A program made the position numbers and the translations under genes. From Sulfitobacter sp. (lineage in GTDB: Bacteria > Pseudomonadota > Alphaproteobacteria > Rhodobacterales > Rhodobacteraceae), in contig JAPKCR010000031.1 of NCBI GenBank assembly GCA_026421135.1, positions 1 through 10,280 of the forward strand: a stretch of DNA of 10,280 nucleotides, given 5' to 3'. Below, piece after piece: positions 4,605 through 8,929 of the stretch (position 1 is its first letter; every line of letters starts with the position of its first letter). Under the pieces are notes generated by a model that had not been told where the DNA came from, searched no databases, and was given only the letters and a program-made list of their open reading frames with translations.

Positions 4605-6026
4605 TTAGGCCAACATCCGTACAGCAGCTTCAAGATCGTCGCTGAATTGCGCGGTGGCGTCTGCTTTGGCCTGAGGGTCGGGCAGGCGCAGCAGATATGA
4701 TGGGTGCAGGGTGAGCAGGACGGGTGTGCCGGTTGGAGTTTGTTCGACCTTGCCACGACGGGCAAGGATTGCATCACGGCGGCCGGTTAGCCCCTCGGCA
4801 GCAGTGGCCCCCATGCCAAGGATCAACTTGGGCTGCACTTTCGCGATTTCCGCATCCAGCCACCAACGGCAATGGTCGATCTCGGAGGTGTTGGGCCGCT
4901 GATGAATGCGCCGTTTGCCACGCGGCGTGAATTTGAAATGTTTCACTGCGTTAGTGACATAGGCCTGTGTCCGGTCCAGCCCTGCCTTTGCAGCGATCTG
5001 GTCAAAGAGCTGACCCGCAGGCCCAACAAAAGGCCGCCCGCTCAAATCCTCTTGATCGCCGGGCTGTTCGCCGACGATCATCAGTTCGGCATCCATCGGC
5101 CCTTCGCCCGGAACAGCTTGGGTTGCATTACAGTGCAGCGGGCAACGGGTGCAGGCGGCAATCGCGGCGGGCAAGGCGTCTTGTGGGCCGTCCCATGCCG
5201 ATTGATGCGCCGACAGTTGCGCCTGAACTTGCGCCATGCGGGCAGGGGGCAGGGATGGGGCCGCTTGGGCCATGGCACGCGCACGTGCGGGCGCGTCGGC
5301 GATCATCTGAGGGATGAACGCTGCTTCGGGCATGTTCTTCCAGTATTTCTTGGGCATCTCGGATTGCATGGCTTTGACCATCAATCGCGCGGGGTTAAAG
5401 ATGTTCTGGAAATAGGTGATCCAAAGCTGTTCGCTGGCGTCCTCGGGTAGGGTCGGTTTCTCGGTCCCTTCTTGAAACGACAGTCTGCCGTTTTCAAAGA
5501 TGACGGACACATCGGGCGTCAGGATACGCCAATCCATATCGCTGAACCGGCGGACAAAGAAATCGGCGGTGGGTTCGACGGTGTGATAAGTCGGTTCAAA
5601 CCACGCAGCAAAGGACCGGCGCGGGGCATCGGGGCTACCGATCTCGCGAAAGCGGACAAAGGCTTTCATCTTGTGCTGGCAGCGATGCACGTTCTTTTCC
5701 ATCTGTCGCAGGCGCGACAACTCGGCGTCGCCACGATCTGTCATTAGGTGCGGCGCATCCCGAAGCCGCCATAAAAAAGAATAAAGCCGGGCAAAGCGTT
5801 CGGGATCACTGTGCCAAACCACACTGCTGGCCATGCTGATAAAACTGCGCGGCACGGTGATCTGACCATTTGGCCGCAAGGGTTCATCAGTACCAAAAAG
5901 TTCGGGTGCTTTCGTGGCATCGCCCCACAAGATGTCCTCGGGCCGGATACCTGCGGCCAAAAACTGCCGGGCCGCATCACGCCACGCTTGGGCGGTGCCG
6001 ATCTTTGGCATGATCGCGCGGTGCAT
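4605..6026 (-). CDS. DUF4130-UdgX fusion, uracil-DNA-binding/glycosylase-superfamily protein
   Basis: A two-part DNA-repair protein of 473 residues. Residues about 1-250 match the DUF4130 type (TIGR03915) that accompanies the radical SAM partner. Residues about 285-473 are a family-4-like uracil-DNA glycosylase of the UdgX branch. Visible motifs are GEQPGDQED (319-327) for uracil binding and water activation, KRRIH (371-375), and HPSYLLR (441-447). In mycobacterial UdgX the His of KRRIH forms a covalent bond with the uracil-derived abasic site, so His375 should do so here. Likely Fe-S ligands are Cys292, Cys295 and Cys386, with His363 where family-4 enzymes carry a Cys; that assignment is inferred. 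The start at 6026 overlaps the stop of the radical SAM gene by one base (TGATG), implying coupling and co-expression. The N-terminal run WRDAARQFLAAGIRPEDILW fits the expected protein start. Confidence 0.9.
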   Translation of the reverse strand: MHRAIMPKIGTAQAWRDAARQFLAAGIRPEDILWGDATKAPELFGTDEPLRPNGQITVPRSFISMASSVVWHSDPERFARLYSFLWRLRDAPHLMTDRGDAELSRLRQMEKNVHRCQHKMKAFVRFREIGSPDAPRRSFAAWFEPTYHTVEPTADFFVRRFSDMDWRILTPDVSVIFENGRLSFQEGTEKPTLPEDASEQLWITYFQNIFNPARLMVKAMQSEMPKKYWKNMPEAAFIPQMIADAPARARAMAQAAPSLPPARMAQVQAQLSAHQSAWDGPQDALPAAIAACTRCPLHCNATQAVPGEGPMDAELMIVGEQPGDQEDLSGRPFVGPAGQLFDQIAAKAGLDRTQAYVTNAVKHFKFTPRGKRRIHQRPNTSEIDHCRWWLDAEIAKVQPKLILGMGATAAEGLTGRRDAILARRGKVEQTPTGTPVLLTLHPSYLLRLPDPQAKADATAQFSDDLEAAVRMLA

Positions 6027-7261
6027 CAGAACAGGGTAAGCTGTTCTGGTGGTGGCGTGAAACGAGCGCGCAAATCTGCGCTGTCGGTCAGCCCGCTAGG
6101 GGACCAGCCAGCGGCGGTGATGAAACTGCGGGCCTTTTTCATCGATGCACCCATACGCAATAAATCTTCATAGCGCAGAGTTCGGTGGCGGCGGGTGGTC
6201 AGAATACGGTTGACGGTTTTCACGCCAAAACCCGGAACGCGCAATAGCATCTCGCGGGTGGCACGGTTGACGTCCAGCGGGAACACCTCGCGGTGGACCA
6301 GCGCCCACGCCAACTTTGGATCGACCTCAAGGTCTAGGTTCCCGTCAGCTGTGACAGACGTAATCTCGTCCAGTTGGAAATCATAGAACCGCAACAGCCA
6401 GTCTGCCTGATAAAGTCGGTGTTCGCGCTGCAACGGCGGACGGATCAAGGGCAGCTTTGATGAACTGTCAGGGATCGGCGAGAAGGCGGAATAATACACC
6501 CGTTTGAGTTTATAGCTTGAGTAAAGCCGCGTGGATTGCCCCAGTACGGTTGCGTCGTTCGATCCGTCAGCGCCGATGATCATCTGGGTCGATTGCCCCG
6601 CAGGCGCAAAGCGTGGGGGGCGCTTGCCGGTGTGCGACTTGTCCTTTGATACTTCTTTGCGCAACCGGAAATCGGCCATCGCTTTGCGGATCTGGTCGGG
6701 TTTCTTTTCGGGTGCGTATTGCTTGACGGCAGCGTCGGTAGGTAATTCGACGTTGATTGATAGCCGATCTGCCAGCAGCCCGGCTTCGGCGATCAGTTCG
6801 GGCGCAGCATCAGGAATGGTTTTTAGGTGAATGTATCCGCGAAAATTTTCCTCGTGCCGCAGTTTGCGGGCGATTTGCACCATGTCGGACATCGTGGCGT
6901 CCGGCGACCGTATTACGCCTGAGGATAGGAACAGTCCTTCGATGTAATTGCGGCGGTAGAATTCGATCGTCAGCTTTACGACCTCGTCCACGCTGAACCG
7001 TGCGCGGGTGACGTTAGATGAGGCGCGGTTGATGCAATAGCTGCAATCGTAAATGCAGAAATTCGTCATCAGGATTTTAAGCAAACTGATACAGCGTCCA
7101 TCTGGCGCGTAGGCGTGGCAAATCCCGCTGCCCTCGTTTGAGCCCAAGCCTTTACCATCACGCGAGTCGCGTTTGGTCGAACCCGATGAGGCGCAAGATG
7201 CGTCGTATTTTGCCGCGTCGCTAAGAATCGCGAGCTTTTGTTCTACAGTATGTTTAACCAT
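6026..7261 (-). CDS. Putative DNA modification/repair radical SAM protein (TIGR03916 type)
   Basis: Radical S-adenosylmethionine enzyme of 411 residues, found as partner of DUF4130/UDG proteins; the reaction is not known. The 4Fe-4S motif is CIYDCSYC with Cys69, Cys73 and Cys76. Upstream runs KYDASCASSG and GSGICHAYAPDGRCISLLKI are family marks and hold three further Cys (23, 48, 57). The C-terminus has a helix-hairpin-helix (LLRVPGFGVKTVNRIL, about 339-354) for DNA contact. The longest frame starts at 7342, but I choose ATG 7261 for three reasons: homologues begin near the run TVEQKLAILSDAAKYDASCASS; the 27 extra codons would contain a terminator-like hairpin and the promoter; and the LexA box ends 2 bp before this ATG. 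There is no ribosome site in front, which agrees with a leaderless transcript. It is co-transcribed with the UdgX gene. Confidence 0.9.
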   Translation of the reverse strand: MVKHTVEQKLAILSDAAKYDASCASSGSTKRDSRDGKGLGSNEGSGICHAYAPDGRCISLLKILMTNFCIYDCSYCINRASSNVTRARFSVDEVVKLTIEFYRRNYIEGLFLSSGVIRSPDATMSDMVQIARKLRHEENFRGYIHLKTIPDAAPELIAEAGLLADRLSINVELPTDAAVKQYAPEKKPDQIRKAMADFRLRKEVSKDKSHTGKRPPRFAPAGQSTQMIIGADGSNDATVLGQSTRLYSSYKLKRVYYSAFSPIPDSSSKLPLIRPPLQREHRLYQADWLLRFYDFQLDEITSVTADGNLDLEVDPKLAWALVHREVFPLDVNRATREMLLRVPGFGVKTVNRILTTRRHRTLRYEDLLRMGASMKKARSFITAAGWSPSGLTDSADLRARFTPPPEQLTLF

Positions 7262-7296
7262 TCGTTCACTATATGTTCTATTTTGAACCTTGTCAT
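7261..7296 (-). promoter_or_regulatory. Predicted sigma-70 promoter giving a leaderless transcript
   Basis: On the minus strand ATGACA (7296-7291) and TATAGT (7273-7268) are separated by exactly 17 nt, and each matches five of six consensus bases. Standard spacing puts +1 at 7261, the A of the chosen ATG, so the mRNA would have no leader. The -10 lies wholly within the LexA box. The elements are seen directly; the start point is inferred. Confidence 0.65.
7264..7278. promoter_or_regulatory. LexA (SOS) box, alphaproteobacterial GTTC-N7-GTTC
   Basis: GTTC (7264-7267), seven bases ACTATAT, then GTTC (7275-7278) exactly match the direct-repeat LexA site described for Alphaproteobacteria such as Rhodobacter, Caulobacter and Sinorhizobium. 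A further inverted half-site, GAAC, is at 7285-7288. The box covers the -10 element of the predicted promoter, the usual place for repression. It predicts induction of the radical SAM-UdgX operon by DNA damage. Confidence 0.8.
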
Positions 7297-7302
7297 GCAA
7301 AT

Positions 7303-7327
7303 AGGCTGCGGTCAGTCGCCGCAGCCT
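7303..7327 (-). terminator. Stem-loop after the response-regulator gene, likely terminator
   Basis: AGGCTGCGG (7303-7311) pairs perfectly with CCGCAGCCT (7319-7327) around a seven-base loop. It lies 41 bp beyond the receiver gene stop on the minus strand and is followed there by only a short T-run (ATTTGC), so it may be a weak or partly Rho-dependent terminator. It separates the two-component operon from the promoter of the SOS-type operon. Confidence 0.6.
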
Positions 7328-7367
7328 GTCTTTAATGCACACATTTGAGTGATCGAAAGCTGCCGGT

Positions 7368-7739
7368 TCACGTTTCGAGGTTGGGATACACCCGGCGCAA
7401 AGTTTCGATCAGCTTTTGGCTACTGACCGGCTTTTTCACTACGCGATCATCTGGCCCAAGAAAGCTGATCTGGTCTGCGTCATAGGCGGTGATAAAGACA
7501 AACGGGATCCCACGTTCGCGCAGGATGTCGGCAACCGGTTTGGACGTCTTGTTATGTCCTAAATTCACGTCAAGAAAGGCAATGTCAATGTCCCCCTCAC
7601 GCGCCTTTAATTTTGCGTCTTCTAGGTGGATAGACGGGCCAACGACGTTGAATCCGATATCCTCAAGGATATCCGTCATTTCAAAGGCCACGACGACCTC
7701 GTCTTCTACGATGAAAATATTCTGAGGTTTATTGGCCAT
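7368..7739 (-). CDS. Single-domain response regulator (CheY-like receiver)
   Basis: Stand-alone phospho-receiver of 123 residues with no output domain. It has the acidic pair E12-D13 (FIVEDE), phospho-acceptor Asp57 in AFLDVNLG, Thr84 in FITAYD, and Lys103 in VVKKP, so all catalytic receiver residues are present. A longer frame starts at 7784, but ATG 7739 is preferred: it overlaps the kinase stop as TAATG, the usual coupling arrangement, and the protein then begins MANKPQNIFIVEDE, a normal receiver start. The longer version would overlap the kinase gene by 45 bp and add a tail with no domain features. It presumably takes phosphate from the adjacent HWE kinase. Its downstream target, another protein or a phosphotransfer partner, is not in the window. 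Confidence 0.9.
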   Translation of the reverse strand: MANKPQNIFIVEDEVVVAFEMTDILEDIGFNVVGPSIHLEDAKLKAREGDIDIAFLDVNLGHNKTSKPVADILRERGIPFVFITAYDADQISFLGPDDRVVKKPVSSQKLIETLRRVYPNLET

Positions 7740-8929
7740 TAGCTCGCTCTGTCTTCCGTTTCTACGGGCATCCGTAGATGCCACTCAAATCCCTGAGGGC
7801 CAAAATCCGAAGTTATCTCGCCGCCAGTTTCCATCTGCAAAGCACGGCCTGTGATGAAGCTGCCAAAACCTGTTTCCTCCGGTTTTTCAGCAGCGGGACC
7901 ACCCGTCTCGATCCAGTGAAGCTCTATAACCGAACCATCGTCCGTGGCAGATTGTTCCCACGTCATATCGACGCGCCCCTCGGGCACAGACAATGCGCCA
8001 TATTTCACGGCGTTTGTGGCCAGTTCGTAGAATGCCATCGAGAAGGACAAAGCCTGACGCGAAGGGACTTCGATCTTGGGGCCGCTTAGAACAATGCGTC
8101 CGTCACCGATGGTCTCCAAAACGTCTGCGGCCACGGCACCGATGTCAGCGCGGTCCCATTTCGTGCCAACCAGTTTGGAATGGGCCATGGCATAGGCGTT
8201 CAGCCTTTGGTCGATGGTTTCGCGCAAATCACGTTGGACTCTCATCTTGCGCAGGGATTGACTGACAATAGACTTTACCACGCTAAAGGCGTTCTTTACG
8301 CGGTGGTTTAGTTCCGCAATCAGGATGTTCTGCGCCTCGCGCAGATGGCGCTCTTCGTCGATATCAATCAGGGCGACAGATGCGCCGATGCGGGTCCCAT
8401 TCGCATTGATCACGGGCTTTCCTATGATACGCATCCAAAACATTGTTCCATCACCGCGCTGGTAATGTACGTCGATTTCTGAGTGGTCCTCGCCATCACG
8501 GATAACGCGCGACAGCGGATATTCGTGGCTTTGAACTTGGCTGCCATCTTCATGGAAGGACACCCACGCGGCATAGTCTTCGGTATGTTCTGAGTGAATG
8601 ACCGGATGGCGGACCATCTTTTCGACATGACTGTTGCCATAAATGATCCTGCCGTTTGCATCAGCCATCACGACGCCAACCGGGACGGTTTCCATCATTG
8701 CCTCAAGAAAGGTCAAGCGATCCGATGATTTCTCTGACTTGATCCTTCGGCTTTCAGCATTTTTGACGGCCAATGCCTCTTGCAGCTGCAAAAGTTCTGC
8801 CGCCATCTCATCAATAGAATTTGTAGGCATGTATGTTCCCAGACTCTTTAGCAGTGTGTCACGTGACATAAGCCGTGTTATCAATCTGTCCAACAAGAGG
8901 GCTGCGGAACCGGCGGAAAAGCCGTCCAT
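7739..8929 (-). CDS. PAS-domain HWE-family sensor histidine kinase
   Basis: Cytoplasmic sensor kinase of 396 residues with no membrane segment. Residues about 40-70 are probably helical or coiled coil. A PAS domain spans about 75-190 (METVPVGVVMADANGRIIYGNS, ending in the IGASVALIDIDEERHLREAQ linker). Dimerisation/phospho-acceptor helix: AELNHRVKNAFSVVKSIV with His209. ATP domain: Asn306 in ELATNAVKYGALS, the family-defining His338-Trp339-x-Glu341, and the G-box GFGS (354-357). No LOV flavin Cys motif is present in the PAS, so a light sensor is not indicated; the signal is unknown. HWE kinases in Alphaproteobacteria often act in stress pathways. The start is uncertain: ATG 8929 has no clear ribosome site, and ATGs at 8869 and 8830 (after a GGGAA) are alternatives. 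The stop is fused to the receiver start. Confidence 0.92.
   Translation of the reverse strand: MDGFSAGSAALLLDRLITRLMSRDTLLKSLGTYMPTNSIDEMAAELLQLQEALAVKNAESRRIKSEKSSDRLTFLEAMMETVPVGVVMADANGRIIYGNSHVEKMVRHPVIHSEHTEDYAAWVSFHEDGSQVQSHEYPLSRVIRDGEDHSEIDVHYQRGDGTMFWMRIIGKPVINANGTRIGASVALIDIDEERHLREAQNILIAELNHRVKNAFSVVKSIVSQSLRKMRVQRDLRETIDQRLNAYAMAHSKLVGTKWDRADIGAVAADVLETIGDGRIVLSGPKIEVPSRQALSFSMAFYELATNAVKYGALSVPEGRVDMTWEQSATDDGSVIELHWIETGGPAAEKPEETGFGSFITGRALQMETGGEITSDFGPQGFEWHLRMPVETEDRAS

Follow-up and report, generated by a model that had tools for sequence, protein, structure and literature searches.

How a gene is transcribed and translated when the operator of its presumed repressor lies directly against its start codon is the question raised by the 5′-end of a radical SAM gene in Sulfitobacter sp. 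The gene is part of a 10,280-nucleotide stretch of DNA (contig JAPKCR010000031.1), the whole of which was analysed and is referred to here as the window. The answer that emerges from the sequence and from comparison with relatives is that a LexA-repressed, leaderless promoter very probably drives an operon encoding the radical SAM protein and a DUF4130-UdgX fusion.

The operon and its proteins

The first gene of the operon (6026..7261, minus strand) encodes a 411-amino acid radical SAM protein that matches TIGR03916 (rSAM_link_UDG) with 582.5 bits against a cut-off of 343.5, and that carries the cluster motif CIYDCSYC (CxxxCxxC). We take COG4277 to be the same family. The second gene (4605..6026, minus strand), whose start overlaps the radical SAM stop by 1 nt, encodes a fusion of DUF4130 (TIGR03915) and UdgX (TIGR03914), as judged from profile matches and a KRRIH motif. 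The UdgX part scores 338.9 bits (cut-off 189.95) and possesses both the GEQPG motif and the KRRIH loop, the histidine of which presumably makes a covalent bond; the KRRIH of the window aligns with the KRRIH of the solved chain 6iod. Together, the radical SAM and DUF4130-UdgX proteins constitute a putative repair system of unknown chemistry.

Of 164 loci, 154 extend beyond the radical SAM stop; UdgX is the next gene in 152 of these, the two genes overlap by 1 or 4 nt in 112 loci, and Shine-Dalgarno pairing of -5 kcal/mol is present at the UdgX start in only 13 of the 152. Of 295 genomes searched in the family, the window's own among them, 60 contain the radical SAM gene, with 58 scoring over the cut-off; in a sample of 40 relatives, which likewise includes the window's own genome, 14 have it over the cut-off. 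Radical SAM proteins from Hoeflea (L178 and L179) and Pleomorphomonas (L207), genera that we take to belong to the Rhizobiales/Hyphomicrobiales, are 82%, 82% and 73% identical to that of the window, respectively, and these identities suggest that the operon has been transferred between orders.

Genes for an HWE histidine kinase (PAS) and a response regulator adjoin the repair operon on the same strand (7368-8929). A hairpin formed by a 9-bp perfect inverted repeat (7303..7327, minus strand) lies between the response-regulator stop (7368) and the promoter of the operon. The region around it (7295-7340) folds at -20.5 kcal/mol with a z-score of -4.03, the T tract is weak, and the hairpin is not among the terminator-like sites found in a scan of 7150-7420. 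It is possible that this hairpin is an insulator or terminator, which may shield the unit from the upstream kinase and response-regulator genes.

Operator, promoter and start codon

Read on the gene (minus) strand, the start region consists of GAACATATAGTGAAC, 2 nt and an ATG (7259..7261) whose A is position 7261. GAACATATAGTGAAC (7264..7278, minus strand) is a GAAC-N7-GAAC repeat identified as a LexA operator by its exact motif and its conservation, with LexA binding predicted; as GTTC-N7-GTTC, it is the sole exact match on both strands of the window. A -10 hexamer, TATAGT (7268..7273, minus strand), is located inside the operator at -12 to -7 from the start codon, and a -35 hexamer, ATGACA (7291..7296, minus strand), is found upstream across a spacer of 17 nt. 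This arrangement had been described in an earlier note on the window, which placed an exact box at 7264-7278 over the -10 of a promoter with a 17-nt spacer, put the predicted +1 on the A at 7261, and saw no ribosome site before it. All of these elements were recovered. A neutral promoter scan of 7150-7420 returned one match, ATGACA-17-TATAGT (10/12), in the same place, compared with an average of 0.2 in shuffled sequences; the promoter model predicts transcription to start on the A of the ATG, which would yield a leaderless mRNA; and the best Shine-Dalgarno duplex before the ATG (-2.3 kcal/mol) is not convincing.

Conservation of the box was assessed in 142 distinct upstream regions, mostly from Rhodobacterales, from which identical upstream stretches had been removed. 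The set comprises 72 regions from the 80 named loci and 70 from other genomes, and takes in a few records from other orders (Hoeflea, Pleomorphomonas) as well as some that are apparently mislabelled. Fragments or weak matches (L015, L068-L072), a broken match (L099), a locus with no start (L192), a weak radical SAM match in G193 and a second, weak one in G090 were left out before counting, and two family loci, L310 (box at -17) and L312 (box at -19), stand outside the 142. In a first set, the box abuts the ATG in 14/14 full-length loci, including that of the window. The expectation in the earlier note that orthologues would keep the box at the same offset is confirmed in the larger set, where GAAC-N7-GAAC begins at exactly -17 in 83 of the 142 regions, at -18 in 23, at -19 in 3 and at -20 in 1; these 110 regions are referred to as the abutting group. 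A further 24 regions form a shifted group with the box at -28 to -31, 2 have the box in GTTC orientation at -16, and 2 have it further upstream. An exact box is absent from 4 of the 142, and two loci (L095 and L097) look leadered. The start codon chosen is ATG in 142/142 regions.

Two layouts can be recognized. In the layout of the window and most relatives, the operator is superimposed on the -10, as GAACA[TATnnT]GAAC-NN-ATG. In the second layout (for example L200, L203 and L215), TTGACGAACnnnnnnnGAAC is followed by a TATAAT-like hexamer and then the ATG, such that the operator fills the spacer. Both layouts should block RNA polymerase, and neither displaces the predicted +1 from the A of the start codon by more than a few bases.

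Similar upstream stretches were clustered before the register of the promoter was counted. TTG is positioned exactly at -35 in 48/72 clusters of the -17 group, where the first -35 position is T in 55/72 clusters and A, as in the window, in 10/72. TTG lies at -35 or -36 in 20/22 clusters of the -18 group, and also in 11/14 clusters of the shifted group, though the operator of the latter is 11-14 nt further upstream. Because TTG keeps its place where the operator has moved, the -35 is tied to the start codon and not to the operator. A simple weighted sigma-70 consensus of our own, searched from -90 to +15 with no region dropped for shortness, places the best +1 within -4 to +1 of the A in 91/98 abutting clusters (73 exactly on the A), in 14/14 shifted clusters (12 exactly on the A) and in 6/8 clusters of the remaining group, where the rates in shuffled sequences are 7.7%, 8.6% and 10%, respectively. 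The controls for this model are lexA and uvrA of the same family, for which the +1 is near the A in 1/30 and 0/30 loci.

Shine-Dalgarno pairing points in the same direction. Pairing of -5 kcal/mol or better is found in 7/110 abutting and 0/24 shifted regions, as compared with 27/30 lexA, 29/30 uvrA and 16/30 recA loci of the same family, the recA start positions being uncertain in some rows. With a laxer cut-off of -3.45 kcal/mol, pairing is found in 33/110 abutting regions, 6/24 shifted regions and 27/30 recA loci. The weak pairing is partly forced in the abutting group because the operator occupies the place of the Shine-Dalgarno sequence, a constraint that does not apply to the shifted group. 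The control loci are the best-scoring 30 from 61 genomes searched per gene, and they carry the GAAC/GTTC direct repeat at lexA (28/30), uvrA (25/30) and recA (25/30), at positions from -35 to -106 apart from a single uvrA, with a questionable start, that has it at -20. The window's own genome (G000; 87% complete, 851 contigs) has no lexA, recA or full uvrA match, probably reflecting assembly gaps; lexA and recA are present in a genus mate (G014). Collectively, the -35 TTG locked to the start codon and the weak or absent Shine-Dalgarno pairing support the leaderless reading of the earlier note, a reading that depends on sequence comparison.

Three other explanations have to be weighed against a LexA-repressed leaderless promoter. 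That the box is a chance motif and the gene is outside LexA control is suggested by the motif taken alone: at least one exact box occurs in 56/200 shuffled windows (mean of 0.35 per shuffle), and as a lone motif the box is thus not beyond chance. It is lifted above chance because the box, the -35 TTG and their distance to the start codon are conserved in relatives, the position of the box being kept in 110 + 24 of the 142 regions. Further evidence against chance is that the motif recurs at lexA, recA and uvrA within the family, that 15/17 orthologues from other classes have a LexA box of another type (CTG-N10-CAG) at this gene, and that the gene pair has been assigned to the SOS response in the literature (PMC8565304). 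Given the conservation of the box, this explanation is rejected as having next to no probability. The choice of start codon is a separate matter. Initiation upstream (TTG at 7300, GTG at 7342) or at an internal codon would give the mRNA a leader or alter the length of the protein, and an upstream open frame does exist in the window (GTG at 7342, TTG at -39). However, 37/142 orthologues have no alternative in-frame ATG, GTG or TTG from the upstream stop to codon 9, and the upstream starts would sit above the conserved promoter. An internal start would remove conserved sequence, since the match to the family profile begins at residue 6 when the protein is taken as 411 aa. The use of a different start codon is therefore very unlikely.

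The remaining explanation accepts SOS control but assumes a leadered mRNA, transcribed from a promoter further upstream, with LexA at the start codon acting as an elongation roadblock and the ATG being read without a Shine-Dalgarno sequence, which is the case for many genes in alphaproteobacteria. There are precedents for its components in Caulobacter, where leadered genes without a Shine-Dalgarno sequence are common (PMC4117421) and where a LexA box in a coding region is suspected of blocking elongation (PMC12907096). Against these stand the columns of the alignment, which hold at most 0.17 bits from -60 to -40 but 1.0-1.7 bits at the TTG columns (-35 to -33) locked to the ATG, as well as the single promoter of the neutral scan and the predicted +1 on the A in 73/98 clusters. 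The leadered explanation is improbable, if less so than the other two, and a LexA-repressed leaderless promoter is the preferred reading.

Reach beyond the family

Outside the family, 44 other alphaproteobacterial regions were considered without clustering. An abutting box (-15 to -21) is present in 20 of the 44, and the +1 falls within -4 to +1 of the A in 19 of these 20. For the remaining 24 regions the +1 is near the A in 5, and strong Shine-Dalgarno pairing is found in 8/24 as against 1/20 of the abutting regions; many alphaproteobacteria outside the family thus look leadered.

In other bacterial classes, the 15/17 orthologues with a CTG-N10-CAG LexA box have it within 60 nt of the start, and Shine-Dalgarno pairing of -5 kcal/mol is found in 0/17. 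The absence of pairing says less here because lexA in the same genomes is also mostly without it (2/16 with pairing of -5 kcal/mol, and 10/17 for recA). A leaderless start in these classes is not supported, as the model puts the +1 near the start in 2/17, and it is for this reason that the leaderless layout is claimed for Alphaproteobacteria only. At two loci of another class (L368 and L377, family f189), a CTGT-N8-ACAG LexA box overlaps the GTG start of the TIGR03916 gene.

A search of 120 genomes with GAACAT-N5-GAAC-N1-4-ATG gave 78 matches, distributed over 54 genomes, compared with 7 for a control pattern; going by their coordinates, 14 of these matches mark the start of the radical SAM gene. 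Among 30 pattern loci that were inspected, 3 are the radical SAM gene (L119, L131 and L138), whereas the other 27 begin an open frame of less than 100 aa (20 loci) or of 105-501 aa (7 loci). Because these other loci mainly begin short frames, the abutting layout looks mostly particular to the radical SAM gene, with other cases in the family possible.

Related boxes were also noted elsewhere. The box of Caulobacter CCNA_01391, a gene considered as a possible orthologue of the radical SAM gene, occurs in 29 of 385 genomes of the class. In one genome (G668), an identical box, GAACATAACAAGAAC, is situated 11 nt before an ATG at two loci (L331, 1501-1515; L359, 1437-1451), and the two genes that bear it look paralogous and, by eye, are not the radical SAM gene; the same GAACATAACAAGAAC box is given for Caulobacter ccna_01391 and ccna_02355 (PMC12700426). 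On another contig of the window's genome (L104; contig C408, 1322-1347), overlapping boxes share a half-site, GAAC-N7-GAAC-N7-GAAC, with no clear gene start nearby.

Mechanism and comparison with known systems

LexA binding, induction, the exact 5′-end, leaderless translation and translational coupling are predicted from these sequence features, and the proposed sequence of events is as follows. In undamaged cells, LexA would occupy GAAC-N7-GAAC and occlude the promoter, with RNA polymerase blocked whether the operator lies over the -10, as in most relatives, or in the spacer, as in a minority. Following DNA damage, RecA-driven cleavage of LexA would free the promoter, and transcription would initiate at the A of the start codon, or no more than about 4 nt away, generating an mRNA that lacks both a leader and a ribosome site. 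Translation of the radical SAM protein would then start at the 5′-terminal AUG, and that of DUF4130-UdgX would be coupled to it through the overlap of the stop and start codons. The operator is found in at least two places and the predicted start in one, suggesting that the position of the operator and the site of transcription initiation evolve independently. In practical terms, the start-locked promoter offers a candidate leaderless SOS gene that is easy to test, suggests that activity should be sought once DNA has been damaged, and indicates which start codon is the correct one to use when the radical SAM protein is expressed.

A tie between the gene pair and the SOS response had been drawn in the earlier note, and it is supported by the conserved box, but it is not new. 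The COG1573-COG4277 (uracil-DNA glycosylase/radical SAM) pair was predicted to be SOS-regulated in Bacteroidetes in PMC8565304, which credits earlier reports of SOS control of a uracil-DNA glycosylase system of this type in Verrucomicrobia and Alphaproteobacteria to its references 7 and 65 (Erill 2016, da Rocha 2008). The gene pair is of the same kind and under the same LexA control as in the window; the Bacteroidetes use other LexA motifs, however, and the portion of PMC8565304 available makes no mention of the start codon, the promoter register or a leaderless mRNA. Neither a leaderless mRNA for this operon nor a start-locked LexA box was found among the matches listed from the open-access literature. 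SOS control of the gene pair is thus already known, and the fixed leaderless layout appears to be new as far as the search extended.

The nearest parallel for a leaderless first gene is the acuR-acuI-dddL operon of Rhodobacter sphaeroides, where a leaderless mRNA was proven by 5′ RACE, with the +1 on the A of the first AUG of acuR (PMC3017554). Like the operon of the window, acuR-acuI-dddL is repressed, lacks a Shine-Dalgarno sequence and has its +1 on the A (a prediction in the window); unlike it, the operon responds to a TetR-type repressor and acrylate rather than to LexA and DNA damage (PMC3017554). Translation of acuR, the leaderless first gene, is far weaker than that of the genes behind it (PMC3017554), and by analogy less of the radical SAM enzyme than of UdgX may be produced. 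Against such a dose effect, leaderless and leadered mRNAs are translated with similar efficiency in Caulobacter (PMC4117421). A tentative extension of the preferred reading, and one that we consider more doubtful than probable, is that selection acts on the ~35 nt spanning the operator, promoter and start codon as a single unit in Alphaproteobacteria. On this view, leaderless initiation would be a functional component of the SOS response, with the 5′ AUG of the mRNA being used in damaged cells and the dose of radical SAM protein held low relative to UdgX, and the leaderless start would have been retained by selection even after a displacement of the operator by approximately one helical turn.

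Caulobacter has many leaderless mRNAs, with 375 reported (PMC4117421), and 171 are reported in S. meliloti (PMC3616915). Known damage-response genes resemble the window in part. The Caulobacter gene CCNA_01391 is an early SOS gene with the LexA box GTTCttgttatGTTC (PMC12700426), and a separate study describes its primary transcription start as leaderless (PMC4287350), the two reports being combined here. In Mycobacterium tuberculosis, the translation start of lexA, an SOS gene, coincides with its transcription start (PMC2897130), as is predicted for the radical SAM gene of the window, but the phylum is a different one and the gene is lexA itself. The RDR/DdrO system of Deinococcus, a genus in which leaderless mRNAs are important, has sites for a damage-response repressor near or over the transcription start (PMC8072749, PMC5552922); it differs from the window in that the repressor is DdrO and the motif is not the same.
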